Part shown: positions 4,857-35,957 of the stretch, piece after piece | How positions within the stretch are numbered: the stretch's first letter is position 1 | How the letters are laid out: the number at the start of each line of letters is the position of its first letter | Assembly (NCBI GenBank): GCA_016188985.1 | Contig: JACPGM010000010.1 | Location: forward strand, 1 to 54,584 | DNA length: 54,584 bases | Origin: Lentisphaerota bacterium | GTDB lineage: Bacteria; Verrucomicrobiota; Kiritimatiellia; JAAZAB01 | Reading direction: 5' to 3' | Notes under the pieces: generated by a model | Database searches by the model: none | What the model was told of the DNA's origin: nothing | Seen by the model: only the letters and a program-made list of their open reading frames with translations | Made by a program: the position numbers and the translations under genes

Positions 4857-4983
4857 GGCCTTCCGCCCAATGCAGCCTATACTCGCCGCGTCATTACACT
4901 TGCGCTCCGCAAGTAACGTGGCAACTCAAGTATGCTTATCAGTTAATGCGAATGTGGCTCGAATTCGGTCGGGAAACCGATTT

Positions 4984-5008
4984 CTGCATTCTATATTCTG
5001 CCTTTCTT
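4984..5008 (+). repeat. 7-base quasi-repeat, downstream arm flanking mazG
   Basis: The tract reads as imperfect ATTCTGC units and ends with ATTCTGCCTTTCTTCC (4993-5008). The exact reverse complement of these 16 bases occurs at 5828-5843, directly upstream of the mazG start, so mazG is enclosed by a perfect inverted repeat. Confidence 0.8.
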
Positions 5009-5020
5009 CCGTAGCACGTC

Positions 5021-5827
5021 TTACGTGCTTCCGGCGGCCTTCACCGCATTCCAATACTCATCCAGCTCCGCTAAGGAACATTCCGTCAATTCACGGCCGG
5101 TCTGGCGGACCCGCTGTTCGACCGCTCGAACACGGCGGGCAAACTTATCCACGGCTCGGCCAAGCACTTCCTCGGCATTCAAGCCTTGAAATCGGCTGAG
5201 ATTAACCACGGCAAACAGGAGGTCGCCCAATTCTTCCGAGATCCGGGCAGTATCACCCGCCGCCAGGGCCTGCTTGACTTCGGAGAGTTCCTCCTCAATT
5301 TTCGCTACGACGTCGTGCACCTGCTGCCAATCGAAGCCCAGCCGGGCGAGGCGTTTCTGGAGATGATGCGCCTTGTGCAGGGCCGGCAGGTGGCGTGGGA
5401 TGTCGCTCACCAGGGAGGATGATGTTCCGCAGCCCGGCTCATTAGCCGCCCCCTGTTTTTCCTGCAGCTTGATAGCCTCCCAGTTTTTCAGCACTTCGCG
5501 GCTGTCGGAGACGCTGGCCTGGCCGAATACGTGCGGATGCCGGCGAACCAATTTTGCGCAGAGACGATCCACCACGTCCGCAAACGAAAACTGGCGCTGT
5601 TCGGCGCGGATTTGCGCCTGAAAGACCACCTGCAGCAGCAGGTCGCCCAGTTCTTCGGCGTGTTTCTCCGTCTGGCCCGCATCAATAGCATCAATGAGTT
5701 CATAGCATTCCTCAATGAGATATTGCTTCAATGAAGCGAGGGTCTGCTCGCGATCCCAGGGGCAGCCGCCCGCGCCGCGCATTCGCGCCATAATGTCGAG
5801 TAAGTCCTTGATCGTATAGGCAGTCAT
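5021..5827 (-). CDS. mazG: Nucleoside triphosphate pyrophosphohydrolase MazG
   Basis: MazG hydrolyses NTPs and dNTPs, including damaged or ppGpp-related pools, to NMP and pyrophosphate in the cytoplasm. The 268-residue product has the usual two tandem MazG domains. Domain 1 begins with MRGAGGCPWDREQTLASLK and contains the metal-binding motifs EECYELIDAID (about 44) and EELGDLLLQVVF (about 58). Domain 2 repeats EEELSEVKQAL and EELGDLLFAVVN (about 195-212). The length fits E. coli MazG. The gene is framed by 16-base inverted repeats on either side. No toxin-antitoxin partner is next to it. Confidence 0.95.
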   Translation of the reverse strand: MTAYTIKDLLDIMARMRGAGGCPWDREQTLASLKQYLIEECYELIDAIDAGQTEKHAEELGDLLLQVVFQAQIRAEQRQFSFADVVDRLCAKLVRRHPHVFGQASVSDSREVLKNWEAIKLQEKQGAANEPGCGTSSSLVSDIPRHLPALHKAHHLQKRLARLGFDWQQVHDVVAKIEEELSEVKQALAAGDTARISEELGDLLFAVVNLSRFQGLNAEEVLGRAVDKFARRVRAVEQRVRQTGRELTECSLAELDEYWNAVKAAGST

Positions 5828-5860
5828 GGAAGAAAGGCAGAATGCAGAATTAAGAATGCA
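5828..5860 (+). repeat. 7-base quasi-repeat, upstream arm flanking mazG
   Basis: Units of GCAGAAT and variants occupy the whole space between the mazG start and the thiC terminator. The first 16 bases (5828-5843, GGAAGAAAGGCAGAAT) are the exact reverse complement of 4993-5008. The arm also replaces any obvious ribosome site for mazG. Confidence 0.8.
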
Positions 5861-5885
5861 GAAAAAAGCCTGAATGAAGTCAGGC
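5861..5885 (-). terminator. Rho-independent terminator after thiC
   Basis: On the minus strand the six-base stem GCCTGA/TCAGGC closes a six-base loop (CTTCAT) and is followed by a run of six T. It lies 36 bases beyond the thiC stop and is a textbook intrinsic terminator for the HAD-thiC transcript. Confidence 0.9.
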
Positions 5886-16896: not shown

Positions 16897-17319
16897 ATGC
16901 GCAAAGCATCATTTGAAGAAGTGGTAGCCCAGATTCAGAAGGAAGACCCCCGCTATGCGCCGGAGGCCTATTTTTTTATCCGCGAGGCGCTGGATTTCAC
17001 CGCCCGGCTGCTGAAAAAACCGGCGCAAGGCCCGGGCCGCCACGTCAGCGCCGCCGAGTTGCTGGAAGGCATCCGCCAGTTCGCCCTGCATGAATATGGG
17101 GCCCTGGCCATGACCGTATTGAATGACTGGGGCCTGCGTAGCTGCGCCGATTTCGGCCAGGTGGTCTTCCACCTGGTGAACAAGGAGTTCCTCGGCAAAA
17201 CCGAAGGGGATTCCATCAGCGATTTCGACCATGGTTACGATTTTGCCAGCGTATTCCGCGCGCCGTTTGCGCCGGAAAAGAAATGCAGATCCGCACCCCA
17301 ACGGGGCGCCACTTCATAG
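16897..17319 (+). CDS. Minf_1886-family conserved protein (PVC-restricted)
   Basis: The 140-residue protein has the pattern of the Verrucomicrobia/Planctomycetes-restricted family Minf_1886: FEEVVAQIQKEDPRYAPEAYFFIREALDFT at the start, HVSAAELLEGIRQFALHEYGALAMTVLNDWGL in the middle, and DFGQVVFHLV...DFDHGYDFASVFRAPF at the end. Function is unknown. Its presence is a strong taxonomic marker. The last residues, SAPQRGATS, and the TAG stop are encoded by a family A repeat (from 17293), so the native C-terminus has been replaced by repeat-derived sequence. Confidence 0.85.
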   Translation: MRKASFEEVVAQIQKEDPRYAPEAYFFIREALDFTARLLKKPAQGPGRHVSAAELLEGIRQFALHEYGALAMTVLNDWGLRSCADFGQVVFHLVNKEFLGKTEGDSISDFDHGYDFASVFRAPFAPEKKCRSAPQRGATS

Positions 17320-17473
17320 CCCAGGGTGCAACCCTGGGATTGGGAAACGGAAAAAATACCAACCCCGCACCCCGTTGGTGGGTGTGCGGATGGGTTGGGT
17401 TTCAAATCCCCAGGGTTGCCTGCCGGCAGGCAGGCACCCTGGGCTATAATGTTGGACGCCGTTGGCGTCCCGG
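17293..17473 (+). repeat. Family A element, long inverted form
   Basis: The element begins with the hairpin GCACCCC-AAC-GGGGCGC, then CATAGCCCAGGGTGCAACCCTGGG (17315-17338, described here by its core CCCAGGGT). About 60 bases later the mirror arm follows: CCCCAGGGTTGCC, a GCCTGCCGGCAGGC palindrome, GGCACCCTGGG, CTATAAT and the GGACGCC hairpin. The two halves are complementary, so the whole forms one large stem. It overlaps the 3' end of the Minf_1886 gene and abuts the M16 peptidase start. Confidence 0.85.
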
Positions 17474-17482
17474 AAATGTTCG

Positions 17483-20308
17483 ATGTTTGCTTCTCTATTC
17501 CGATTCCGTCCGTCTATTCTGACATTCTGCATTCTGCATTCTGCATTCTGCATTTCCTCTTCCGGCGCCGCGCCGGCGGAAGCCGCGCTGGCCCAGCTTG
17601 CCGCCGGGTTGGAGCGGTTCGTGCTGGAAAACGGGCTGACCGTGCTTGCCCGCGAGGACACCAAAGCGCCGGTCGTATCCCTCCAGGTTTGGGTTGGCGC
17701 CGGGGCCGTCCATGAGCAGGAGTTCCTGGGCGGCGGCCTTTCGCACCTGCTCGAACACATGATTTTCAAGGGCACGCCGACGCGCGAGCCCGGGGAGATC
17801 AGTCGGACCATCAGCGATCTCGGCGGCTCGATCAACGCCTACACCTCCCAGGACCGCACGGTTTTTCTGGTGGATATCCCGGCCGCGCACTGGCGCAAGG
17901 GGCTCTCGGTACTGGCCGACGCCGTGTTAAACGCTTCTTTCCCGGAGGATGAATGGCGGCGCGAAAAAGATGTTGTCCGGCGTGAAATGGCCATGGGCAA
18001 AGACAACCCGGCGCGGCGGGTCGGGGAACTGCTGTGGCAAACCGCCTATCGCGTGCATTCCTATAGGTTCCCCGTAATCGGCTACGAGGACATTTTCAAA
18101 ACACTTACCCGCGCCGATCTCCTGACTTTTTTCCGCCGCCATTATCTGCCCAACAACATGATTGTCGCCATTGTGGGCGACGTGCCCGGCGCTGAAGTGC
18201 GCGCCGAAGTCCAGAAACAGTTTGGCCAATACCCGCGCCGCGCCTATTCCGGCGTGATATTGAACGCCGAACCGGAGCAGCTTGGCGAGCGCACCGCCCG
18301 AGAGACCGGCGCCTGGAACGTGGCCCGGCTGGAGTGGGCCTGGCATACCGTGGAACTCAGTCATCCGGACACGCCCAGCCTGGATTTGCTGGCCATAATA
18401 GTCGGCCAGGGAAACAGCTCGCGCCTAGTCCGTGAAATCAGGGAAAACAGGAAACTGGCCTCGGAAATCACGGCCTGGAGCCACACGCCTCGCGACCCCG
18501 GGCTCTTCGGCATCAGCGCCGTATTCGATCCCACCAACGAGCCGGAGTTGACCCTGGCGCTGCAAGAGGAAATTGCGCGCTGGCTTACCCTCCCGTTCAG
18601 CGCAGAGGAAATCGAGAAAGCGCGGCGACAGATGCTGACCGGGACGCTTGGCGCCTTTGAGACCATGCACGGCCAGGCCGAGCAATTTGCTTCCGGCGAA
18701 TTTTATGCCGGCACGCCCTTCTTCTTTCAAGTCTACCTGCAGCGTCTTAACAGAGTAACGCCCGCTTCCCTGGCGGCGGCAGCCCGCCGGCATCTAAGGG
18801 CGGAAAACCTCACCAGGGTTGCGCTGGCGCCAGATAAGATAGACGACGGACGACAGCCTGCCCTGCGAAGCCCGAAGGGCGAAGCAGGGACGACAGACGA
18901 CGGAGAACGGAAAACGAAAAAAGGCACAGAGAAGCAAACGCCCAACGCCCAACATCCAACATCGAATGTCGAAGGTCTGAAATCAGAGTCGGGAGCGACA
19001 GACCCCGCGAAGCGCGAGACAGGTAACGAGGTTCAAAAAACAATTCTATCCAGCGGTCTGACTCTGCTTACGCGCGCGGATCATAAGCTGCCCTTTGTTG
19101 ATTTCCGCGTGGCCTGCGGCGGCGGATTGCTGCTGGAAGACGAAAGCAATAACGGCATTTCCGTTTTGATGGCCGAGCTGCTGACGCGCGGCGCCGCGCG
19201 CCGAAGCGCCCAGGACATTGCCAGCCTGGTGGAATCCCGCGGCGGCAGCCTGGAGGCGTTTGGGGGACAAAACAGTTTCGGCCTGACGGCGCGCTGTCTG
19301 AAGGAAGACGCTGAGATTTTTATGGAGTTGCTGGCCGATTGCCTGCTTAATCCCGCCTTCGCGGCGGAAGAAACGGCAAAACAGAAATCAATTCAACTCG
19401 CCGCGATCAAGGCGCAGCACGATGCTCCCATGTTCCTGGCCCAGGAAGCGCTGCGACAGGCTTTGTTTCCGGGTCATCCCTATCGCTTCAGTCCCGATGG
19501 CGCCGCCGCGACGGTCCAGTCGCTTTCCCCGATGGACTTGCGGGCTTTTCATGCCCGAACGGTGGTCCGCGACAACACGGTCTTGGCAATTTTTGGCGAC
19601 CTTACCACGGAACAAGCCCGCGCCCTGGCTGAGCGATTCCTGGGCCAATTTCCTGTAGCCGCGGCGGTGACGCCGCCCGCCTGCAGCGCTTTGAGCGCAG
19701 CGATTGCGGGCAGGTGGCCTCCGGCGCCGGCACCGGGCGCCCCTCAACCGACCTTGCCACGGCAAGTCACACGCACGGCGCCCAGAGAACAAACTATTAT
19801 CCTCACTGGATTTCCGGGGATTGAATTAAAAGACCCGCGGCGCGCGGCGCTTGATGTCCTCCAGGAAGCGTTAAACGGCTTATCTTCCGACCTTATGATC
19901 CGCATTCGCGATAAGGAAGGCCTGGCCTATTACACCGGCGCCTGGCAGCGCCCCGGTCTGGACCCGGGATTCTTTGCGCTCTTTGCGGGCACGCATACCG
20001 GCGCGGCGGAGCGCGTGCTGCGGCTCATGCAGCAGGAAGTCAAGCGCCTGACGACCAAGGGACTGCGCGCGGAGGAGTTTGAGCGCGCCCGCGCGCAACT
20101 TATCGCCGAGCATCAGCAACGGCTGCAACTGAACGGCGAAACTGCGCTCGAATGCGCCTTGAATGAGTTGTATGGCTTAGGCTACGATTACGGCTTTAAG
20201 CTCGCGGAACGCCTGGCGGAGCTGAAATTGGAAGACGTGCGCCAGGCTGCGGCCACGTTGCTGGTTCCGGAGAAATGCGTGACTGTGGTGGTGCGGCCGA
20301 GGCCGTGA
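17483..20308 (+). CDS. Secreted tandem M16 (insulinase-family) zinc peptidase
   Basis: The product (941 residues from the ATG at 17483; a TTG at 17462 is also in frame) is a fused pair of M16 peptidases, as in PqqL and processing-peptidase-like proteins. The N-terminal half holds the inverted zinc motif HLLEH (in GGGLSHLLEHMIFKGT, about residue 85). The C-terminal half (from about 520, ILSSGLTLLTRADHKLPFVDF) lacks it and is the non-catalytic partner. Residues 1-35 are a signal peptide whose core ILHSAFC is encoded by four perfect ATTCTGC repeats. The linker between the halves (about 450-515) and a segment near 725-755 (PVAAAVTPPACSALSAAIAG) are also repeat-derived. It is likely periplasmic. 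Confidence 0.88.
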   Translation: MFASLFRFRPSILTFCILHSAFCISSSGAAPAEAALAQLAAGLERFVLENGLTVLAREDTKAPVVSLQVWVGAGAVHEQEFLGGGLSHLLEHMIFKGTPTREPGEISRTISDLGGSINAYTSQDRTVFLVDIPAAHWRKGLSVLADAVLNASFPEDEWRREKDVVRREMAMGKDNPARRVGELLWQTAYRVHSYRFPVIGYEDIFKTLTRADLLTFFRRHYLPNNMIVAIVGDVPGAEVRAEVQKQFGQYPRRAYSGVILNAEPEQLGERTARETGAWNVARLEWAWHTVELSHPDTPSLDLLAIIVGQGNSSRLVREIRENRKLASEITAWSHTPRDPGLFGISAVFDPTNEPELTLALQEEIARWLTLPFSAEEIEKARRQMLTGTLGAFETMHGQAEQFASGEFYAGTPFFFQVYLQRLNRVTPASLAAAARRHLRAENLTRVALAPDKIDDGRQPALRSPKGEAGTTDDGERKTKKGTEKQTPNAQHPTSNVEGLKSESGATDPAKRETGNEVQKTILSSGLTLLTRADHKLPFVDFRVACGGGLLLEDESNNGISVLMAELLTRGAARRSAQDIASLVESRGGSLEAFGGQNSFGLTARCLKEDAEIFMELLADCLLNPAFAAEETAKQKSIQLAAIKAQHDAPMFLAQEALRQALFPGHPYRFSPDGAAATVQSLSPMDLRAFHARTVVRDNTVLAIFGDLTTEQARALAERFLGQFPVAAAVTPPACSALSAAIAGRWPPAPAPGAPQPTLPRQVTRTAPREQTIILTGFPGIELKDPRRAALDVLQEALNGLSSDLMIRIRDKEGLAYYTGAWQRPGLDPGFFALFAGTHTGAAERVLRLMQQEVKRLTTKGLRAEEFERARAQLIAEHQQRLQLNGETALECALNELYGLGYDYGFKLAERLAELKLEDVRQAAATLLVPEKCVTVVVRPRP
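17524..17551 (+). repeat. Four perfect ATTCTGC repeats encoding the signal-peptide core
   Basis: Four head-to-tail copies of ATTCTGC lie inside the M16 peptidase gene. Read in frame, 21 bases encode ILHSAFC, which forms the hydrophobic core of the signal peptide. The same unit, on the other strand, forms the signal-peptide core of the lipoprotein gene at 20971-21843 and flanks mazG. Confidence 0.9.
18838..19030 (+). repeat. Repeat-derived linker inside the M16 peptidase gene
   Basis: This stretch links the two M16 halves and is built from repeats: a hairpin module around CCCTGCGAAGCCCGAAGGG (18853-18892), GACGGAC-like heptads, then five 7-base units from 18940 to 18974 (GCCCAAC, ATCCAAC and variants). 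The encoded peptide is polar and low in complexity (KEKQTPN-like). Related sequence occurs in the kinase-fusion gene at 34487-34585. The reading frame is kept. Confidence 0.75.
19655..19735 (+). repeat. Family C element inside the M16 peptidase gene
   Basis: The 20 bases at 19655-19674 (GTAGCCGCGGCGGTGACGCC) are identical to 20322-20341 in the intergenic family C element just downstream of the same gene. They are followed by the hairpin module CCCGCCTGCAGCGC...GCGGGCAGG, which is also found at 43836-43872. The insert encodes VAAAVTPPACSALSAAIAG in a loop of the inactive M16 half. Confidence 0.85.
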
Positions 20309-20321
20309 GGAGCCGTTCTAT

Positions 20322-20516
20322 GTAGCCGCGGCGGTGACGCCGTGGCCTGCCCGCAGTGCTACAGCGTTGCAGGCGGGCCGCCGAAGGAATCCACGCCCTC
20401 ACGGGCGCGGCTACCAGGCTTGATTTCGTAGCTGCGGGCGTGAGGCAAGTGGCCGCCGAAGGAATATCGCTCGGCGGCCCTGCCAGACGAATCCACACCC
20501 TCATGGGCGCGGCTAC
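20322..20516 (+). repeat. Two tandem family C elements
   Basis: Each unit is bounded by GTAGCCGCG or GTAGCTGCG on the left and CGCGGCTAC on the right (20322-20414 and 20429-20516), with internal complementary blocks such as CCTGCCCGCAGTGC/GCAGGCGGG. They fill the 230-base gap between the M16 gene and the DUF1844 gene. Another unit lies at 42148-42229. Confidence 0.85.
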
Positions 20517-20538
20517 AAAAAAATAAAAGAGGTATTCC

Positions 20539-20946
20539 ATGAACGTCGCCAACCCTGATATCAACAAGGTCCTCTTCATGCACCTGGTCTCGATGCTGGC
20601 CATGTCGGCCATGCAACAGTTAGGCAAGCTGATCAACCCGGCCACGGGCAAGGCCGAAATTCACCTGGAAGCCGCCCAGGCCACGATTGACACGCTGGAT
20701 ATGCTTGCGGCCAAGACCAAAAATAATCTGGATGGCGATGAGGAAACACTGCTTAAGGACACTTTAGCGTCGCTCAAGCTGAACTTTGTGGAGACCAAAG
20801 ACGAAAAAGAACGCCCTGCGCCCGCAACACCCGAGAAACCCCAGGAAAGCAAAGCTGTAACCGAAGAGCAAAAGCAGGAGCAGCCAGAATCGAAATCAGA
20901 CCAAGCGCCGTCCAAAGACCCGAAGTTCCATAAAAGCTATGAGTGA
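20539..20946 (+). CDS. DUF1844 family protein
   Basis: The 135-residue protein begins with the DUF1844 pattern: LFMHLVSMLAMSAMQQLGKLINPATGKAEIHLEAAQATIDTLDMLAAKT, followed by LLKDTLASLKLNFVE. This domain ends at about residue 92; the rest is a charged, disordered tail rich in Lys, Glu and Pro. The family is widespread in PVC bacteria and some proteobacteria, without a known function. A GAGG-type ribosome site (AGAGGTATTCC) precedes the ATG. Confidence 0.85.
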   Translation: MNVANPDINKVLFMHLVSMLAMSAMQQLGKLINPATGKAEIHLEAAQATIDTLDMLAAKTKNNLDGDEETLLKDTLASLKLNFVETKDEKERPAPATPEKPQESKAVTEEQKQEQPESKSDQAPSKDPKFHKSYE

Positions 20947-20975
20947 TAAATTTTTCGCCGGGCGAAAAATTTATT
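20945..20975. terminator. Bidirectional terminator between convergent genes
   Basis: The arms TAAATTTTTCGC and GCGAAAAATTTA form a perfect 12-base stem with a three-base loop. The stem has T runs on both strands, and the sequence lies between the convergent DUF1844 and lipoprotein genes, overlapping both stops. The identical 12-base arms recur at 33260-33284, so it is also a repeat. Confidence 0.8.
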
Positions 20976-21843
20976 GGGCCACGGCAGTCACAGCGGCCTC
21001 GGAGCCGGCTTCCTCGATGAACGTGGCTTGCATGGTGCGGGCGGAGAGGGTCGTGCCATTGAGGGTTCCCTGCAGGACGCCGACTAAGGTTACCTTGTAG
21101 CCATTGGCAACACCCGTGGCGCTGAACTGGGCCACTACCGGTCCGGAACTCGGCAGAACCGCTCCGGAAGCGTTAAGATCAACCGGTTGCCCGCCGGTGG
21201 TGCGCACCGTGCCGATGGTGCCTTCATAGCCGGCGCCGTTGCTGTCGCCGATCTGGAGCTTATTGCCGGTCTGATAGACCACGAACGAATAAATGGCATC
21301 ACCATGATTGCCTTGAATGGGTGTAACGACTTCCACCGTGCTGACATACAGGTAAGTGGCCAGAATCTGAGTGCCGTTGGCAATCGGCGCCGGGAAGGTC
21401 AGCGCCCAGGCGCGAGTAAGATAATTGAGCGTGCCGGCGGAGCCATCGGCGGGCGTAACGGAGAGCGAGACCGTGTCGGCGGAGGTACCGGCGCTGTCGG
21501 TGAACTGATAACCGCCCACGGTAAAAATAGTCAGCGACCCGCGCACGGGCGCGTAGGTCAATTGCCCGTTAAAGGACGTGTTGGTGCCATTGCCGGTGGC
21601 CAGCAACTCGCTGGAAACGGTATTAGTGGCAGTGGTTATATTAGTTGTGCTGAGCGCATTGGTTACGCCGAACTGACGCACGAGCACATTGCCATCCGAG
21701 GCTTTGTAGGTACCGCTGAAGTCCACCCAGTTGCCGCTGTCATCCCAGGAAGTGACGCTGCTGCCGGCGTCCCACTCGCAGCCGGCGAGGAAAAGAATGC
21801 AGAATGCAGAATGAAGAATGAAGAAATATTTCAGGAATTTCAT
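20971..21843 (-). CDS. Outer-membrane or secreted lipoprotein, unknown family
   Basis: The 290-residue protein starts with a lipoprotein signal peptide ending in the lipobox LAGC (Cys about 22), so it is lipid-anchored. The hydrophobic core FILHSAFCILF is encoded by four 7-base repeats (21792-21819). The mature part is Ser/Thr/Gly/Asn-rich with predicted beta structure (FSGTYKASDGNVLV, GQLTYAPVRGSLTIFTVGGYQF, YKVTLVGVLQGTLNGTTL). I recognise no domain; similar lipoproteins occur near PVC surface-protein genes. A GAGGT ribosome site lies upstream of the ATG. It is convergent with the DUF1844 gene. Confidence 0.75.
   Translation of the reverse strand: MKFLKYFFILHSAFCILFLAGCEWDAGSSVTSWDDSGNWVDFSGTYKASDGNVLVRQFGVTNALSTTNITTATNTVSSELLATGNGTNTSFNGQLTYAPVRGSLTIFTVGGYQFTDSAGTSADTVSLSVTPADGSAGTLNYLTRAWALTFPAPIANGTQILATYLYVSTVEVVTPIQGNHGDAIYSFVVYQTGNKLQIGDSNGAGYEGTIGTVRTTGGQPVDLNASGAVLPSSGPVVAQFSATGVANGYKVTLVGVLQGTLNGTTLSARTMQATFIEEAGSEAAVTAVAQ
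21792..21819 (-). repeat. Four 7-base repeats encoding the lipoprotein signal core
   Basis: On the minus strand the units are ATTCTTC, ATTCTGC, ATTCTGC, ATTCTTT. They encode FILHSAFCILF, the same ILHSAFC heptapeptide as in the M16 peptidase signal peptide. Confidence 0.9.
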
Positions 21844-22398
21844 GTTTCTATTACCTCAGTCAGTCTTTGGTAATAAAGCATAAAGCTCGATAATCCGCAA
21901 TACCAATAAATCTGCCTTCCGCACTCTCGCCCCGCACCCCAAAGGGGTGCCACGTCATAGCCCAGGGTGTCCGCCCTTATGGCGGGAAACCCTGGGATTG
22001 AAAAGGGAAAATACCCCCAAAAAAACCCAGCACCGCATTAAAGGGTAAACGGACGGGTTGGGTTTCAAATCCCCTTCGGCTGCATTAAGGCGGGCTTATG
22101 CCCGCATCTCCCAAGAAAATAACAACAAGGATGTTTGAACAAAAGGTAACAAAGCAAACTAAAGGGGCGTATGCCCGCAACCCAAGCAAGACAAACCTCA
22201 CCACGGAGACACGGAGATAGAAATTCTCCGCCCATGTTCTCTTCCAACCAATCGTTGTGCGCATCCCGAGGCGCGCTTACGCGCGCTCAGGATGCGCGCA
22301 ACACTCCTGTGGGGATCCGGAAGAGATTAAGGAGACGGAGTCATTCTCCGTGTCTCCGTGGTGAATCCCATATAATATTGGACGCCGTTGGCGTCCCT
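21844..22398. repeat. Gene-free gap with family A and CCACGGAG inverted repeats
   Basis: This 555-base gap holds no convincing gene. 21940-22082 is a family A element: GCACCCC-AAA-GGGGTGC, CATAGCCCAGGGTG, a CCGCCC/GGGCGG-like hairpin, ACCCTGGG and the GGGTTTCAAATCCCC arm. 22201-22217 and 22345-22361 are a perfect 17-base inverted pair (CCACGGAGACACGGAGA and its complement). 22380-22396 is the GGACGCC-GTT-GGCGTCC hairpin just after the giant gene stop, where it could act in termination. Confidence 0.8.
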
Positions 22399-25300
22399 TC
22401 ATTTCAATACCGGCAGCATGCCGGGGGCGCCGAAGCGGCCCTGGTAGTATTGTCCGCTCCAGCAGCTAACATACCACATGCCGGTGTTGGTGTCGTAAAT
22501 AGCCACGTCGGTGCGGCCGTCGCCGTCATAATCGCCCGGCACCGGCACGCAACCGGCCCAGCCGAAAGTGCCCTGCAGGAACTCCCCCGTCCAGGTCAGC
22601 AGCATCCAGCGCCCGCTGGCGCTCTCGAACAGGCAGGCATCATTGCGGCCGTCGCCATCGTAATCGCCCGGCACCGGCAGCCACAGCGGCCCGCCCAGCG
22701 CGCCGCCGAAATAAGTCCAGGCGCGGTAATACTTGTGGAAGCAGGCGATCAGCCAGTTGCCCGTGGCCGGCTCATAGACCGCCAGGTCGGCGGCGCCGTC
22801 GCCGTTGTAGTCGCCCGGTACCGGGATCATGCCGGAAGAACCCCAGCGCATGGAATATAACTCGCCGCTCCAGGCGTTGAAAATATGCCAGGTGCCGTTG
22901 TCGGTCTCGAACAGGGCCAGCTCCGCGCGGCCGTCGCCGTTATAATCGGCCGGCACCGGCAGCATGGAGACATCGCCGAGTTGCAAAGCCGCCGCCTGGT
23001 CGCGCGCGGCGCTGTAGAGCGTCCAGAGCCCCTGCGCCGGGTCATAGAGCCCGAACTCGGAATAACCATCGCCATCAAAATCGCCCACAAAAGGCTGGAC
23101 GCGCGTGACGCCGAAGAGCAGATCCAGGGGCTGCCCGGCCATGGTAATCAGGCGCCAGACCCCGGCGTTGTAATCATAGAGGGCCACATCGCTGCGGCCA
23201 TCGCCGTCGTAGTCGCCCGGGCTGCTCCAGGCATCGAAGCACATGGGCCGGTAGGCCGGCACGCTGTTTGCGTCCAGCGGGTCGGTATGATAGCGCCATA
23301 GTTCGGCGCCATCGGAGTAACCATCGCCATCGGTATCCCACAAATTGGGATTCAAGACGCCGGCCTGCGCTTTCATGGAATAGCGGGGGCCGAAGGCGGC
23401 GGCGTTATAGTTCGGCTCGAAGGCATCGCTCAGGCCGTCGCCATCGGTATCCCAGGAAGCCGGGTTGAGGTTCAAGCCATCGTGCAGGTATTCCTCCAGA
23501 TTAGTCTCGCCATCGCCGTCATAGTCCATATCGGCGGTCTGGTCCAGGTCGCCGAAGAAGGCCATTTCCCAGGCATCGGGCAGTTCATCATTATCGGTGT
23601 CCCGGTCGCGGATAATCACCCTGGCGGCATCCTTAAATTGGACGCTGAAAATGTCTATCGCCCCCGGCTGGTAGAAGCTGGTCGGATCGCGGTAGAAGCC
23701 CCAGGAGTTCCAATAATTCAATTTGCCGTTGCGCTCGGCGCCGGAAGCCGGGGTGGTGTCAAGGAACGCTCGCACATAATAGGTCCCCTGCTGCAATCCG
23801 GCCAGGGTGTAGGATCCCTTCACCCAGTTGGTGGTGCCCGCCAGGGTCAACTTAACTCGCGCCGCGGGCTGGCCGCTGAACCCGCGGTTATCGAAGGCTT
23901 CCACGATGATGTTATTGGCCGGCGCCTTGCCGAAGTAATAGATCTCGCCGGTAATCCAGCGCGAATTGGTGGTGGTCAGATCAACCTGGAAGGTCTGCGC
24001 GTCCGACCAGGCGCTCTCGCTCTGGGGATTCCAACTGGCAATCCGCCAGAAATAAACGCCGTTACCAAGGTCGCTCAAATACGATGGCAGGTAGTCCCGA
24101 TACAACCCGTCGTTATCGCGATAGGGCACCGGATAATAGTCGTCCACCACCATGCTCAAGCCGCCATCCGATGCCTGCCTGGCTATCTGCAAGTGATAAC
24201 GGGTGGAATAGAAATCCATATCCCAGGTAATTGCGCTGCGTGCCTGATAATAGATGTCGCCTTTGGGATATAACAACGTAGGTGTAGCCAGTGAAGATGG
24301 CCACGTGACGGGAAATACGCCATGGTAATTAGTTCCAGAAGTAGTAGTGAAAACCCACCACTGATATGAACCAGAAGACAAACCGTAGATTCCTGCATTC
24401 TGAAAATCCCATTCACCCAAACCAGGATAGCTTGTATATTTTTCGAAAATCAGCGGGGCGCCTTGTTGACTGAGCCGATTAATAAGGACGTGACTAATAC
24501 CGCGGAGTGATGAAACATTGTAACTTTCCCAAAGATGTCGAAAATATCCCGGCTGGAAATCAGAAATCCCAACCCGAAATCCATCGAAACTGCTATGATT
24601 TAAAAAATACGGATTATCTTCACCCTGTCCTGCGGGTTCTGTTACCGTCAATTCACCAGATTGCCTGCTATTCCATAAACCATCTCCATTCACATCCATA
24701 TAGGCAAAAAGACTGAAGTCGCCTTCCCCTGGCCCCACAAATGAAAAGTTACCCTGATCATCACATGTCCCCGATAATCCGGATTTGTTCCAAGCTTTAC
24801 CTGTATCAAGCATGTTTGTTCCAATCAAAGCCCAAACACTTACAGAAGAAAGGGAAGCTGTATTCGTCCCGAAATAATGGACGGTTCCTGATATCAATGG
24901 AGTTGGCTCGTTAGTCGGATTTGAAGGGTCGGTTCCCGCCAAATATTCCTGGTAATTGCTCCAGCCATCGTCATCCAGGTCCAGGTTGGCGTCGTACTTC
25001 TGGGGATCGAGGCCGTTCTGGCTTTCCCAGTCGTCGGGCATACCATCGCCATCGGTGTACATTTCGCCATAGGTGCGGGAATACGTGCCGCGCGGGCTGT
25101 CATAGTCGCCAATGCCATTGCCGGCGGTGTCCGTGCGGAAGGGATCAGTGCCGGCCAGGTATTCGCCGCGGTTATTGAGGCCGTCGTTATCCGGGTCGCC
25201 CCAGGGACCATTGACACCGGTGGCGTCATTGGGATCCAATTGATATTTCTGCTCCCACCAGTCAGGCAGCCCATCGCCATCGGAATCGGTCGAATCCGGG

Positions 25301-28300
25301 TCGCCGGAGAGCCCGCTCAGCCAGGAGTTGGTAGCCACGCCGCGCGCACCGCGGAACAGATAGAAATCCGCAAAGCCAGGAGTACCATCACTGTATTGTA
25401 AGCCATAGGGATTAGCCGGGTTCTTATAACCAACGGGCATTGAAGTGACAATATTGGTTATGCCATTGGTAACTACGACGATATTTGTGGGCTGGCGCAA
25501 GCTATCATCATAGGGTGGGATTTGAGCTACATGCGCCGCCAAGTTCTGGGCGTGGACCATGTAATTGTACATGCCATTAAGACCGGTATAGACGGTTGAG
25601 CGGTTCACGCTGTTGCTCCACCAAGAGATGGGCGGATGGAGCTCCGCGCTTGTATCCAAGGCGGTAAAATAGTTGGGCACAATCGGCTCATCCAGGACCC
25701 CGGCGCTATTGCGGTGATTCGGGTCGGGCACGTCGTCAAAGTTGCAATAGATAACAAGGGGTGAACTGGCAATATCATCCCAGGTGAGGCGCCGGTCTTT
25801 ATTAGCAATAATCTCGCCCTGCGTGCGGGGGCCATTCCAGACGCGCACTTCGTCAATACAGCCGCCAAAATGGTTATAAGTCTGCACCGAATCATAGCCG
25901 CCGGCCGAGTTAGTATCCGAGGCGCCGATAATAAGCGAGCTGCCGCGGCCAGCTATGGAATTTCCGGAAACCGAATCAACGCCGTTATCGGGAATTTCTT
26001 CGGTACGCACCGAGGCGCTGATATCGCCATTCACGTAAATGGTAAGGTTGGTTCCGTCGTAGACCCCGGCAAGATGCGTCCAGTTGGTCCCTGGCTGGAG
26101 CTGGTGGCGCTGGGCGGCGATGGCCTGGTGCGAGCGCAGCGAGCCGCGGCCGTTATACATGATAAAGGGCAGGCCATTGGCAATCCCCAGCCGGTAGTTG
26201 GCGCTGACATTCGTTAAGGATAGATTGAACGGGTTACGCGTCTGCGAAGCGCGCTCGGTTATCACCTGCTCGCCGGCGCGAGTCGGGTTATCCGGCTTGA
26301 TCCAGGCCTCGACACAGAAACGCGTAAGGTAACTACTCGAAAGAACAAGCCACGCATCGAAAGTCCGGGCAAAATCATTGGTGCCATTCAGGTAAAGGGC
26401 GCGGTTGCGGATGGGATTACGGGCATCAAGCGGGTCATTGCCGGTTTCGCCCATGGCCGAATTGATTTCACTGTAGTCGCCGCGGCCGTCATGGTCGGTG
26501 TCAAACCCCTCCGTGTTTTCAAATGGATATGGCGTAAAATCATAATAAAGCGAGAACGCACCGGCCCACATGAAAACATAATTGCGCCAGACAAAGCTGC
26601 GGGTGTCATACCAATCGCCGCGCCAGGACGGGCTCGGATCCGTGTGGTAATAGGAGTACGTGCTGCTGTAGGAATATTCATCCACGTTGGGCAAGCCATC
26701 GGCGTCCGGATCCATCAAAGGCAACCCGCAGTTGAATGGGCCGACCATATCGTAAATTGCCGTTACGCGATCAATAGAACTCGTCGCCGCAAAGTTAGCA
26801 ATAAACTCGGGCAGGGAAGTAAAAGGATCACCGGCAAAGCCGACCTGGTAATCGCGGGCATCGCTGTGCGCGCTGGGATCGGCATCCAGCTCAGCGACCG
26901 AATTCATAAGTGTAGTATGCCTGATATCAGTAGGACCAACCGGCATCATGAGGCTGTATGTTCCCAGGCACGGATTAAGGCCGTGATAGACCTCCCAAAA
27001 ATCGTCCATGCCATCCCAGTCTGAATCCGGATCGGTCGCCAAGGTAGTATGATATTCAATAGCGGCCCAGGCACTGGCCGCAGGGAAATTGGCGCGCAGG
27101 TAGGCTAGATTCGTAGAGACCCCATTTCGCAGCATGAAGCTGGGATCCGAGAGAAAATCGGGCGGCAGGAAATCCGGCGCCGGCATGGGTACATTTCGCG
27201 GATCCCAGGACATGGTGGGGCGGCAGGTAAAATCAATATTCACTATGAAATTAGTCCCGGCAGTACTCCAGGAGGGATCACAATACATCCATTCCGTCAC
27301 CGCACCGGTAAGATATTCCTGCCAATCAAGCAAACCATCGCCATCGGTATCGTTCGAGGTGTTGGTGCCCGCCGCCGTGCCGGCGTAAACCTCCCAGCCG
27401 TCAGGCAGATAATCGCCATCAGTATCATACGAACACGGGTCGCCTGAATCGCCTTGGTCAGTCAGCCCATCCCAATCGGTGTCTTGCGGATGGGGATCGT
27501 TGGGCGATGGCGCGGTGAGCACGCCGGGATCGGTCGGCCAGAACTTGTCCGGCCGGGTGGCGCTGACATTACCCAGCGGATGGGTGGCATTAAACCACTC
27601 GGCATTATTAAACAACTTATCGCCATCTCCATCCAAGCCTGCGTCGGCGGCATCGTTGGGGTTCAAGCCCACGTATAATTCCCAGCCGTCGGGCATCTGG
27701 TCGCCATCGCTATCCTGCGAACTTGGCAGTGAGTAGCTGTTGCGCGTCAGAGCCACGTCATTGTCATTGGCTATGAAAACCCGGCCGGCGGCATCCCAGG
27801 CTAAGCGGCCTAAATAATTTCCGCCCACGTATTCCTGAAAGTCGCCATAAGCGGCCGTATTAGGCGCCGCCGAGGGTTGATTTGTTCCGACGGCCACATT
27901 ATTTGTCCAGGCAGTCTGCGGGCTGAAACTACACACGCCCGGCCCGGGCGAAGCCGGCGCCATCATGTAGAGCCATTCATGCTTTTTCACCGGATTGACG
28001 ATAGCCACGTCGCCAGCATCGTAATTCGTGTTGCCGTTCATATCCACCCAGACGGCATAACCCTGCTGGAAGGCGCCCAGGCCGGAATTGGTGCCGTAAT
28101 ACACGGTGTTGACAAATGTCGCGCCAGTTTGGCGATTGGTTAGCGCTACCGTCGCTATGAGAATGGTGTCCCGGAACAAATCAAAGGCATTGGTGCCGGT
28201 ATTGGTATAGACGTTGACCCAGGCAGCCACTGGATTAGAAACCGAGCCGACATAAGCCACGGCGTTGGTAAAGGCCGTCCCGCCCGTCACCAGCCCGGTA

Positions 28301-30594
28301 GTAAGAATGAATGCATTTGATGAACCGACGGCATAGAAATCGCCATCCGCCGTCCGCGAGTAGTTGGCATAATCCAGGGCATTGCTGGCGGCCGAGGGCG
28401 TAATGATGGCAACTTCATAGTAGTCATCCATCCCATCGCTATCGGTATCGGCGCTGGTGGGATCAGTGCCGTTCTGAAACTCAAGCAAATCCGTGCCGAC
28501 GTTCGGGCCGGCGTCGCCATCAGTATCGGCGTCGCCATCGGTTTGGGAAATTTCACGGGTATCGCTGGGCGAAATGCGCACCCAATCGAGGTTGGCGCTG
28601 TTGCTGACGCCGGCGGCATAGGCGCTGGACGAGCGCCAGTACCAGAAATAATATTCCCAGCCATCGGTCATATTGTCTTCGTCAGTGTCATCATTCAGCG
28701 GGTCAGTCAGGGGGTCGTCGCCATCGGCCGAGGTGTAGGACAAGCCAACCGTATTGGTCCGGTAGTAGCCATCAATGCCGCGGCACTCGCGATAGTTATT
28801 GAAAGCAACCCCATTGGCATAGCCCAAGCTGCCGGCTGAGTAATAGACCGAACCCACGCTCAGCAGCCGGCTGCGGAGCAGCGGATAACCGGCATTGGTG
28901 CCCTGGCCGATATAGGTCATGAGATTAGCGGCCATAGAGGCCAGCGTAGGCGGCGTTACGCTCGAACTGGGAATAAAGTCGCCATCGGTATTGTCGTTGC
29001 GCCCATAGGGCGAATCATCGTCTTCGGCCGGCCCGCCGTAGAGCTGGTCGCCAAACCTTAAAATTTCCCAGCGATCCGGCAAGCCATCCTGATCAATATC
29101 GCCCACATTATCGTTAGTATAATACTCCCGGCTGAACAACAGCCAGACGCTATAGGACTGGTTCATGACGAAAGAATAACTGGTGTCAAAGTTTTTCGTT
29201 TCCGAGAAAGCGCCCCCTGTCCGGTACCACTTATAGACAGCGCTATCCATGCCATTCGTGGTCAAGGGCAGCCCGGTCAGGGTAACCGTTTCATTTGGTG
29301 TAATTGGATAGGTGGCTTCGGTCGCAGTCTGAGTGTTGGTGGTGCCCGAGACCGCAACCCTGCAATTACCGAGACCAAACCCCGGCAACAAAGCCTGACT
29401 GTTATCCCAGTAAGTCATGCGCAATGTCAAGGTATAGCCGGAAAACGTGTAGGTGCCCGACAGGGTTGTGGTTTGGTTGGAGCTGACTGTCCCCGAAGCG
29501 TTAGCCGGCGCGGTATAACCGGAAAAATCATTAAAATCGACCGTATAACTTCCGGCCGGCACGCTGGCCAGCGTGTATGTGCCCGTCCCCGTAAGCAAAT
29601 TGGTATAATCCGAGGGCGTTGTGATCAGGGTCCACGTGGCATTGGAGGCGCCGTCCGGCGAGATATTGATTTGCAATGTCCCATAAAGCCGGGAATAAAC
29701 TCCCGTCACGCCGTTTACCGCCGGGCTGGCGCTGACAATGTTGGTGGATTGCGGGTTGGCCGAGGTCAGCGTGAAACCGGCTACGGTCGGGAAGGTAACC
29801 GCGTAAAGCCCGGTCGGGACCGAAGCAACAGTATAGTTGTTGGTCCAAGTTGTGCCGTAAGTGTTCGCATTGGTGAATTCCGTTGGCCCGGCAACTGTCC
29901 AGATTACGTTTGTGGTGATGGTAATGCCCGATATCGTAACCGCCAGATCATTGGAATACGGTTGATAGGTTACGGTGTTCGTCACCTGGCGCGGATTGCC
30001 GGTGATGCCGAGACTGACGTCTGCGGGCTTGTTATATCCGCGCACGCGGCTGAACTCGGCTGCATAGGTTCCATCCGGAATCTTGGTCAGGGTGAACGAG
30101 TTGGTAAATCCCAACTGATAAGCCGTGGCATTAGTTAACTCGGAAGGCCAGGAGGTAAAGCGCCAGGTGTTGCTGGTGCCGCTCACCAGGCCGGTGATTA
30201 CCATGGCCAGTTCGTTGGAATAGATCCGATAAAAGTTGGTCAGGATGGGATTTTCGGCGGCAAACGAGTGGTTGCTGGGGTTGTTTTGGTAATAGTCGGT
30301 AATCCGGTTAAAGAACACAATGTGTTCGCCATCGGCCTGATTCAGGATCGTTACGCCGCTGGCATACCAATTTTCATTAGAGGTAAATGTCGTCCAGCGG
30401 GCATAGGTATCAACATAGTTACGCTGATTGAGATACTCGCCCTGCGTCATGTAGTCGTTACTGACCGGCCGCAGGATATAAGTCAGGTTGACTACCCCCT
30501 GGGCTTCCGGGGCCAACAGGCCAGCCATAAGGAGCCCGAGGGTCAGAACCCCGGCCAGGAGCCTGCTTCCGGACATGATTGTCTTTGTCTTCAC
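22399..30594 (-). CDS. Giant secreted multidomain surface protein, 2731 aa
   Basis: The GTG start at 30594 gives a signal peptide (SRLLAGVLTLGLLMAGLLAPEAQG); an ATG six codons later is an alternative. From the N-terminus: PEGA/carboxypeptidase-regulatory-like beta repeats (about 60-380, for example PAGSYTVDFNDFSGYTAP); many calcium-type repeats of the form DTDGDGLxDxWE (about 490-1350 and 1740-1890); a LamG/concanavalin-like domain (about 1395-1600, ALYLNGTNDFARTF to CIDEVRVWNGP); fibronectin-like and carboxypeptidase-like domains (about 1890-2350); more DxDGD repeats; and six FG-GAP/VCBS-like repeats (about 2450-2731, VPGDYDGDGRTDVAIYD). It is probably an adhesin or carbohydrate-binding surface protein; no catalytic domain is seen. 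Residues 1890-2110 are encoded by visibly more AT-rich DNA. Confidence 0.88.
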   Translation of the reverse strand: MKTKTIMSGSRLLAGVLTLGLLMAGLLAPEAQGVVNLTYILRPVSNDYMTQGEYLNQRNYVDTYARWTTFTSNENWYASGVTILNQADGEHIVFFNRITDYYQNNPSNHSFAAENPILTNFYRIYSNELAMVITGLVSGTSNTWRFTSWPSELTNATAYQLGFTNSFTLTKIPDGTYAAEFSRVRGYNKPADVSLGITGNPRQVTNTVTYQPYSNDLAVTISGITITTNVIWTVAGPTEFTNANTYGTTWTNNYTVASVPTGLYAVTFPTVAGFTLTSANPQSTNIVSASPAVNGVTGVYSRLYGTLQINISPDGASNATWTLITTPSDYTNLLTGTGTYTLASVPAGSYTVDFNDFSGYTAPANASGTVSSNQTTTLSGTYTFSGYTLTLRMTYWDNSQALLPGFGLGNCRVAVSGTTNTQTATEATYPITPNETVTLTGLPLTTNGMDSAVYKWYRTGGAFSETKNFDTSYSFVMNQSYSVWLLFSREYYTNDNVGDIDQDGLPDRWEILRFGDQLYGGPAEDDDSPYGRNDNTDGDFIPSSSVTPPTLASMAANLMTYIGQGTNAGYPLLRSRLLSVGSVYYSAGSLGYANGVAFNNYRECRGIDGYYRTNTVGLSYTSADGDDPLTDPLNDDTDEDNMTDGWEYYFWYWRSSSAYAAGVSNSANLDWVRISPSDTREISQTDGDADTDGDAGPNVGTDLLEFQNGTDPTSADTDSDGMDDYYEVAIITPSAASNALDYANYSRTADGDFYAVGSSNAFILTTGLVTGGTAFTNAVAYVGSVSNPVAAWVNVYTNTGTNAFDLFRDTILIATVALTNRQTGATFVNTVYYGTNSGLGAFQQGYAVWVDMNGNTNYDAGDVAIVNPVKKHEWLYMMAPASPGPGVCSFSPQTAWTNNVAVGTNQPSAAPNTAAYGDFQEYVGGNYLGRLAWDAAGRVFIANDNDVALTRNSYSLPSSQDSDGDQMPDGWELYVGLNPNDAADAGLDGDGDKLFNNAEWFNATHPLGNVSATRPDKFWPTDPGVLTAPSPNDPHPQDTDWDGLTDQGDSGDPCSYDTDGDYLPDGWEVYAGTAAGTNTSNDTDGDGLLDWQEYLTGAVTEWMYCDPSWSTAGTNFIVNIDFTCRPTMSWDPRNVPMPAPDFLPPDFLSDPSFMLRNGVSTNLAYLRANFPAASAWAAIEYHTTLATDPDSDWDGMDDFWEVYHGLNPCLGTYSLMMPVGPTDIRHTTLMNSVAELDADPSAHSDARDYQVGFAGDPFTSLPEFIANFAATSSIDRVTAIYDMVGPFNCGLPLMDPDADGLPNVDEYSYSSTYSYYHTDPSPSWRGDWYDTRSFVWRNYVFMWAGAFSLYYDFTPYPFENTEGFDTDHDGRGDYSEINSAMGETGNDPLDARNPIRNRALYLNGTNDFARTFDAWLVLSSSYLTRFCVEAWIKPDNPTRAGEQVITERASQTRNPFNLSLTNVSANYRLGIANGLPFIMYNGRGSLRSHQAIAAQRHQLQPGTNWTHLAGVYDGTNLTIYVNGDISASVRTEEIPDNGVDSVSGNSIAGRGSSLIIGASDTNSAGGYDSVQTYNHFGGCIDEVRVWNGPRTQGEIIANKDRRLTWDDIASSPLVIYCNFDDVPDPNHRNSAGVLDEPIVPNYFTALDTSAELHPPISWWSNSVNRSTVYTGLNGMYNYMVHAQNLAAHVAQIPPYDDSLRQPTNIVVVTNGITNIVTSMPVGYKNPANPYGLQYSDGTPGFADFYLFRGARGVATNSWLSGLSGDPDSTDSDGDGLPDWWEQKYQLDPNDATGVNGPWGDPDNDGLNNRGEYLAGTDPFRTDTAGNGIGDYDSPRGTYSRTYGEMYTDGDGMPDDWESQNGLDPQKYDANLDLDDDGWSNYQEYLAGTDPSNPTNEPTPLISGTVHYFGTNTASLSSVSVWALIGTNMLDTGKAWNKSGLSGTCDDQGNFSFVGPGEGDFSLFAYMDVNGDGLWNSRQSGELTVTEPAGQGEDNPYFLNHSSFDGFRVGISDFQPGYFRHLWESYNVSSLRGISHVLINRLSQQGAPLIFEKYTSYPGLGEWDFQNAGIYGLSSGSYQWWVFTTTSGTNYHGVFPVTWPSSLATPTLLYPKGDIYYQARSAITWDMDFYSTRYHLQIARQASDGGLSMVVDDYYPVPYRDNDGLYRDYLPSYLSDLGNGVYFWRIASWNPQSESAWSDAQTFQVDLTTTNSRWITGEIYYFGKAPANNIIVEAFDNRGFSGQPAARVKLTLAGTTNWVKGSYTLAGLQQGTYYVRAFLDTTPASGAERNGKLNYWNSWGFYRDPTSFYQPGAIDIFSVQFKDAARVIIRDRDTDNDELPDAWEMAFFGDLDQTADMDYDGDGETNLEEYLHDGLNLNPASWDTDGDGLSDAFEPNYNAAAFGPRYSMKAQAGVLNPNLWDTDGDGYSDGAELWRYHTDPLDANSVPAYRPMCFDAWSSPGDYDGDGRSDVALYDYNAGVWRLITMAGQPLDLLFGVTRVQPFVGDFDGDGYSEFGLYDPAQGLWTLYSAARDQAAALQLGDVSMLPVPADYNGDGRAELALFETDNGTWHIFNAWSGELYSMRWGSSGMIPVPGDYNGDGAADLAVYEPATGNWLIACFHKYYRAWTYFGGALGGPLWLPVPGDYDGDGRNDACLFESASGRWMLLTWTGEFLQGTFGWAGCVPVPGDYDGDGRTDVAIYDTNTGMWYVSCWSGQYYQGRFGAPGMLPVLK

Positions 30595-35864: not shown

Positions 35865-35957
35865 GTTTACAGTTAGACAGTTCTCAGTTAGACAGTTTTC
35901 AGTCTTAATGTCAGCCTTCGAACTGTGAACTGTCCAACTGTGAACTGTGAACTGTCC
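35865..35957 (+). repeat. 7/8-base quasi-repeat inverted pair between convergent genes
   Basis: The left arm (35865-35913) consists of units such as GTTTACA, GTTAGACA, GTTCTCA. The right arm (35930-35957) consists of GAACTGT units with one CC insertion. The arms are complementary and could fold as a long hairpin between the convergent kinase fusion and OmpA-protein genes. Confidence 0.85.

Follow-up and report, generated by a model that had tools for sequence, protein, structure and literature searches.

In Xanthomonas and Nostoc, heptamers of the types GGGAATC and GGGGA(C/T)T occur in few copies and mostly in intergenic DNA (Rehm et al. 2015, PMC4692102). According to the accessible sections of that report, their purine-rich strand lies in sense orientation just past stop codons and in antisense orientation just before start codons, each Xanthomonas genome holds 70 to 75 facing inverted pairs, and the repeats recur at the same gene pairs across species. 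The ATTCTGC arrays analyzed here resemble these heptamers in unit length, intergenic bias, strand geometry, facing inverted pairs, and conservation between species. They differ in sequence, and whereas the Rehm heptamers form G-quadruplexes, ATTCTGC and its complement GCAGAAT are not G-rich. Coding of signal peptides is not described in those sections. TAACTGA direct repeats are known from marine Beggiatoaceae, cyanobacteria, and Bacteroidetes (MacGregor 2015, PMC4679880); in the accessible text, the author notes the encoded heptapeptide LSVISYQ and its tolerance at protein ends and proposes a role in initiation or regulator binding for the Beggiatoaceae arrays. The likeness lies in heptamer arrays placed a few nucleotides before starts, few Shine-Dalgarno sequences, and a patchy spread across phyla; however, every frame of the TAACTGA strand contains stops, one indirect (inverted) repeat is reported, and signal peptides are not reported in that text.

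Two other known repeats also contribute to protein sequence. The YPAL/RU-2 MITE of Yersinia has a hydrophobic translation that partly forms the predicted signal peptide of YPO1552 (Delihas, reviewed in PMC2229807). Like the ATTCTGC arrays, it is a small stem-loop repeat with a hydrophobic translation and a part in a signal peptide, but it is a fixed-sequence mobile element rather than a heptamer array, it has one featured locus, and it was hypothesized to yield a new exported protein, whereas ATTCTGC arrays would replace an existing core. Rickettsia palindromic elements are found inside proteins such as guanylate kinase too (PMC2229807). They share with our arrays a hairpin-forming repeat that lies both between genes and in frame within proteins, but they are longer (105 to 146 bp) and not leader specific. 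Separately, both the intergenic geometry of heptamers and the contribution of a repeat to part of a signal peptide are known. Our searches of the open-access literature on signal peptides containing heptanucleotide repeats, and on simple sequence repeats with signal peptides or hydrophobic cores, returned nothing relevant, and a search for Kiritimatiellaeota intergenic repeats returned unrelated papers only; that recurrent signal-peptide cores made of heptamer arrays were not met in this literature is weak evidence of novelty.

Two arrays in the window and the genes they enter

The window, meaning the whole stretch of 54,584 nucleotides that was analyzed, contains the two arrays described in the original prediction and two further arrays that it had missed, at 4981 to 5001 and 5837 to 5864. 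The features are as follows.

4981 to 5001, plus strand: degenerate array TTTCTGCATTCTATATTCTGC, 19 bp past the stop codon of the minus-strand MazG gene
5837 to 5864, minus strand: third array, ATTCTGC-type, in a 5' leader; the MazG ATG lies 9 nt past the array
17278 to 17289, plus strand: left-edge remnant AAGAAATGCAGA, encoding EKKCR, the C-terminal end of the upstream ORF
17483 to 20308, plus strand: M16 family peptidase gene with two M16 halves, ATG start at 17483
17483 to 17584, plus strand: M16 signal peptide region MFASLFRFRPSILTFCILHSAFCISSSGAAPAEA, translated from the ATG at 17483
17524 to 17551, plus strand: (ATTCTGC)x4 array, right-hand edge of the spacer from gene 16897-17319 to M16, encoding TFCILHSAFC
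20971 to 21843, minus strand: lipoprotein gene, 290 residues, with a GAGGT Shine-Dalgarno sequence 5' of its ATG
21778 to 21843, minus strand: lipoprotein signal peptide MKFLKYFFILHSAFCILFLAGC with lipobox LAGC, from translation and motif
21792 to 21819, minus strand: ATTCTTC-ATTCTGC-ATTCTGC-ATTCTTT array, encoding ILHSAFCILF of the lipoprotein signal peptide

Direct reading and Tandem Repeats Finder (17516 to 17554, period 7, 5.4 copies) agree with the predicted four perfect units inside the M16 signal peptide. The minus-strand array in the lipoprotein signal peptide ending in LAGC is likewise borne out by the sequence, the repeat finder (21793 to 21825, period 7, 4.7 copies), and the translation; two of its units are perfect and two carry one change. 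The perfect dimer has 9 matches (overlaps counted) in the 3.09 Mb assembly against 0.03 expected under an order-2 Markov model, and the reversed-sequence control gave 0 matches. The MazG gene (5021 to 5827, minus strand) is flanked on both sides by ATTCTGC-type arrays.

The peptidase belongs to M16 by Pfam (PF00675/PF05193), and a Pfam search with the 290-residue lipoprotein matched no family. As predicted, the two proteins are unrelated, with no similarity outside the repeat. We judged signal peptides by hydropathy and cleavage motifs. The M16 leader has the charged start, hydrophobic core, and small residues before cleavage of a Sec signal and is conserved in relatives; the lipoprotein leader has the hydrophobic core followed by a lipobox of an SPII signal, and its Cys is conserved in orthologues (LAGC in genomes G000, G003, and G007; LTGC, FTGC, MCGC, and VTGC among other relatives). 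The left edge at the M16 locus is fuller in the congener G003 (AAGAAATGCAGAATTAGGAATGCAAAATGA), where the upstream protein ends in EKKCRIRNAK at its stop codon. Given this edge and its EKKCR remnant in the window's upstream ORF, one spacer touches both neighbors at the M16 locus.

The original prediction explained the common heptapeptide by a shared reading frame, but the first array base is at codon position 3 in the M16 gene and at codon position 1 in the lipoprotein gene. Because 7 is coprime with 3 (it leaves remainder 1), all three frames of the ATTCTGC strand give cyclic ILHSAFC, and all three frames of the opposite strand give AECRMQN; both are stop-free. All frames being equivalent, a shared frame is not needed for the common heptapeptide. 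The predicted hydrophobicity was confirmed, with a mean Kyte-Doolittle value of 1.63 that only 8.5% of stop-free heptamer classes exceed. Heptamer hydropathy climbs steadily with the T count per unit. A unit length indivisible by three makes the peptide frame-independent, and T-richness makes it hydrophobic.

Several other repeats were seen in the window. The M16 inter-half linker (18840 to 19045) and part of the second half (19660 to 19760) contain seemingly dispersed low-complexity repeats with GACGACGG-, CCAACAT-, and TCGAATG-type 7-mers (GTAGCCGCGGCGGTGACGCCG), and their peptide stretches have numerous further matches across the genus. A dispersed repeat (CGCACCCC..GCCAC.TCATAGCCCAGGGTG..CCCTGGG) is present in both intergenic regions, 17289 to 17450 and 21930 to 22110; the copy at 17289 to 17450 appears to have broken the left edge of the M16 spacer, and the repeat is found at the G004 M16 locus too. 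A heptamer array of a type other than ATTCTGC, GAACTGT x5 at 35920 to 35955, adjoins a 15-bp repeat at 35870 to 35903. Directly upstream of the lipoprotein gene, a secreted-looking protein of 2,731 residues (22399 to 30594, minus strand) carries Laminin_G_3, TSP3_bac, and FG-GAP repeats.

Arrays at the edges of intergenic spacers

We collected 127 arrays, each with at least one ATTCTGC unit, from the window's own genome, four congeners, and two family members. In the five congeners, the arrays are mainly the edges of intergenic spacers, usually in the order stop codon, AAGAAAT(GCAGAAT)n, a spacer of about 20 to 140 bp, (ATTCTGC)nATTTCTT, and start codon. Within this set of genus and family arrays, neighboring arrays on opposite strands and closer than 500 bp form 26 outward-pointing pairs and 0 inward-pointing ones; contigs from other phyla returned by a genome scan gave 34 outward and 4 inward pairs. 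On the antisense side, array edges typically lie 5 to 10 bp from the neighbor's stop codon, and the upstream protein often takes its C-terminal tail from the left edge (KKCRMQNAECRMAGKKD or MQNAE directly before the stop, for instance). Eighteen array-bearing gene edges are common to different species. Arrays of three units are sporadic in the phylum (8 of 388 genomes). Three complete spacers fold as long hairpins with z between −6.0 and −7.5, and a fourth folding input, missing its right arm, gave z +0.7, without excess.

With tandem 7-bp units in at least two copies dispersed over the genome, a mostly noncoding location beside starts and stops, strand bias, and facing inverted pairs, the arrays fall within the class of intergenic heptameric simple sequence repeats. 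They lack the G-quadruplex potential of the Rehm type, as GCAGAAT has no G run longer than one. Compared with a MITE, the arms are inverted and the spacers look different between junctions among those inspected. The arrays did not originate as signal-peptide elements. Self-matching of intergenic DNA in the genus peaks at lags 7, 14, and 21, and the peaks persist after masking of ATTC-type arrays, which indicates that other heptamers are present in intergenic DNA too; in the coding DNA of the genus, these peaks are absent apart from the codon period.

Translated arrays and exported proteins

N-terminal ILHSAFC recurs within the genus, but of the roughly 15 arrays detected in the window's own genome, only the M16 and lipoprotein arrays contribute to an N-terminus. 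Across the genus, eight families have N-terminal array translation, comprising five Sec-type signal peptides and three prepilin-type leaders.

M16 peptidase: array in coding sequence in G000, G003, and G004
Lipoprotein: array in coding sequence in G000
VNGHF family: array in coding sequence in G002, G003, and G004
TSP3_bac family beginning AQGP: array in coding sequence in G002 and G004
YHHTPP family: array in coding sequence in G001 and G004
Two N_methyl prepilin-like proteins: array in coding sequence
TadE-like protein: array in coding sequence

We assigned each array to coding sequence or 5' leader from start codons and domain limits, partly by eye and unblinded. On this basis, all eight families with a translated array have a signal peptide or prepilin-type leader (for VNGHF and YHHTPP, export status comes from leader motifs alone), compared with 1 of the 24 families in which the start codon follows the array, the exception being the G003 lipoprotein orthologue (family-level Fisher test for this lineage, P = 9e-7). 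The leader-array families include XerC-type integrase, PolA-type exonuclease, riboflavin synthase, IGPS, NagB, GspE, GlmS, MazG, topoisomerase VI A, LptF, and others. In the sample from other phyla, the table for which omits L104 and L200 (no Pfam family), 3 of 3 proteins with translated arrays and 1 of 18 with leader arrays are exported (P = 0.003); both samples combined give P = 1e-9. Translated arrays were confined to exported proteins. Frames L216 minus, L217, L255, and L264 at 1361 were excluded as antisense or chance.

The three cases from other phyla are Bacteroidota signal peptides partly built from the repeat.

L111: Reg_prop sensor, signal peptide MLSKRFVFLFGICILHSAFCILNCFSQ
L130: PhoD-like protein with Por_Secre_tail, signal peptide MKKLFSTFCILHSAFCISFAQ
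L161: trehalase-like protein, long lipoprotein leader ending in LSGC

Together with the eight genus families, they support the predicted formation of hydrophobic cores by the repeat in unrelated exported proteins. How much the core depends on the repeat varies. Removing the array lowers core hydropathy from 2.55 to 1.47 in the window's M16 leader and from 2.98 to 1.17 in the lipoprotein, as the original prediction would have it, and the L130 core collapses from 2.34 to 0.45. In contrast, the M16 leaders of G003 and G004 retain another hydrophobic stretch without the array (2.83 and 2.34), as do L111 and L161; in these four leaders, the array adds to a core rather than making one. An array at L274:2536-2570 falls within a hydrophobic stretch of a PMT-family mannosyltransferase, internally rather than N-terminally (TFRFLHSAFCILPFFH).

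Origin of the array-encoded leaders

For four of the eight families (M16, lipoprotein, VNGHF, and YHHTPP), we compared relatives lacking the array, and all four showed ordinary signal peptides. For ATTCTGC arrays, this applies to M16 in G002, G005, G007, and G009, to the lipoprotein in G002, G003, G004, G008, and G009, to VNGHF in G000 and G007, and to the YHHTPP paralogues. In the G003 lipoprotein gene, the array sits in the 5' leader, directly before GAGG and the ATG. The original prediction had named as a counterargument relatives with the same signal peptide in non-repetitive codons; the relatives' codons are indeed non-repetitive, but the peptide is not the same. Because array-free relatives already have signal peptides, export appears to have come first, with the array rebuilding the core; judged from sequence, the repeat would have rebuilt existing signals, and not created export, in every family whose relatives were examined.

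Other heptamers occupy the same leaders elsewhere. In G007, whose genome is rich in CTTCTGC arrays, four CTTCTGC units form the lipoprotein core (MKFLKYFCLLPSAFCLLLLAGC). The M16 leader of G008 contains FNFSFLIFK from AATTTTT-like units, and the upstream protein ends in KKLKIKN in complementary sequence. These two cases indicate that different local heptamers fill one leader across genera. Unit number (four) and frame of the M16 array are the same in three species, and a substitution is present in G003 and G004; the array was probably gained in the ancestor of G000, G003, and G004.

We consider it probable that spacer-edge arrays overran gene starts, replaced the cores of existing signal peptides and prepilin leaders, and are translated where an export leader is needed. 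ATTCTGC arrays are the right edges of spacers bounded by outward-pointing heptamer arrays, and the paired edges could fold as a hairpin within intercistronic RNA, where the hairpin may have a role. Gene packing in this lineage is so tight that coding sequence is often reached by the edges: the left edge turns into the C-terminal tail of the upstream protein (CRMQNAE before the stop), and, through the right edge, the downstream protein would gain a stop-free hydrophobic ILHSAFC extension in any frame. In cytosolic proteins, whose start codon lies past the array, selection would remove the extension; where an N-terminal hydrophobic leader is needed anyway, the extension may be tolerated. Selection would act in this way as a filter against array translation, and arrays would have repeatedly replaced the cores of existing leaders, by invasion or slippage rather than by array loss elsewhere. 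On the most economical reading, signal-peptide cores are loosely constrained, so that an invading or expanding edge array can be translated there without harm. The array-encoded leaders are presumably translated and processed in vivo.

The original prediction went further and proposed that the repeat could seed new signal peptides, which would make non-exported proteins exported. A stop-free repeat that is hydrophobic in every frame and recurs among unrelated exported proteins fits this proposal, but the signal peptides of array-free relatives and paralogues in M16, lipoprotein, VNGHF, and YHHTPP contradict it, and the families surveyed here include no cytosolic one whose export signal is encoded by an array; we regard it as very unlikely. 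It is unlikely, too, that the arrays are 5' leader signals for initiation or regulator binding whose overlap with signal peptides is incidental, with true starts downstream. Many arrays do end 6 to 15 nt before an ATG, often without a Shine-Dalgarno sequence. However, Shine-Dalgarno-like motifs precede 8 of 21 array genes and 77 of 178 others, rates similar enough that a replacement of the Shine-Dalgarno sequence by the array, which we tested for, is not visible. Moreover, the lipoprotein gene has GAGGT and an ATG before its array and LAGC right after it, GAGGT and an ATG likewise precede the array of VNGHF in G003 and G004, and the M16 gene lacks an ATG between array and domain, the only candidates being TTG at +57 and GTG at +69, in a conserved region.

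Since 7 is not a multiple of 3, a change in unit number shifts the exit frame, and the arrays might then toggle M16 or the lipoprotein as a phase-variable switch. The sites are near the N-terminus, where simple sequence repeats are reported to be enriched (Lin and Kussell, as cited in the accessible part of PMC4692102), but the constancy of the M16 array across three species and the housekeeping nature of most array-flanked genes make such a switch highly improbable. An ancestral signal-peptide cassette copied between the M16 and lipoprotein genes by recombination would account for the identical heptapeptide in genes that lie close together; we find this barely credible, as there is no similarity beyond the repeat and the lipoprotein start ATGAAATTCCTGAAATAYTTC was found once among the ten genomes searched. 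G007, outside that search, has the start ATGAAATTCCTGAAATAYTTC with CTTCTGC units, which shows that the core follows the local heptamer.

Replacement of existing cores by edge arrays would offer a testable route from noncoding repeat DNA to functional protein sequence, with signal peptides as a permissive landing site for the repeat. Only tentatively do we extend it to a general mutational source of signal-peptide cores that crosses phyla, in which frame-independent T-rich 7-mers at gene edges (ATTCTGC, CTTCTGC, and AATTTTT-like, at orthologous positions in one bacterial family) might overwrite existing signal-peptide cores repeatedly and independently, with translation filtered to exported proteins. 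For annotators, N-termini resembling ILHSAFC and C-termini resembling CRMQNAE stem from a single repeat, and a cytosolic enzyme annotated with an ILHSAFC-like N-terminus has probably been given the wrong start.

Two minor observations concern starts and leaders. At L241 and L223 to L260, many array-preceded ATGs lack a Shine-Dalgarno-like motif, and array-free genes of the genus lack one about as often. The M16 leader of G007 (L281/L055) includes CDLCASAVKKSF from a CTCTGCG-type repeat, another low-complexity leader sequence.
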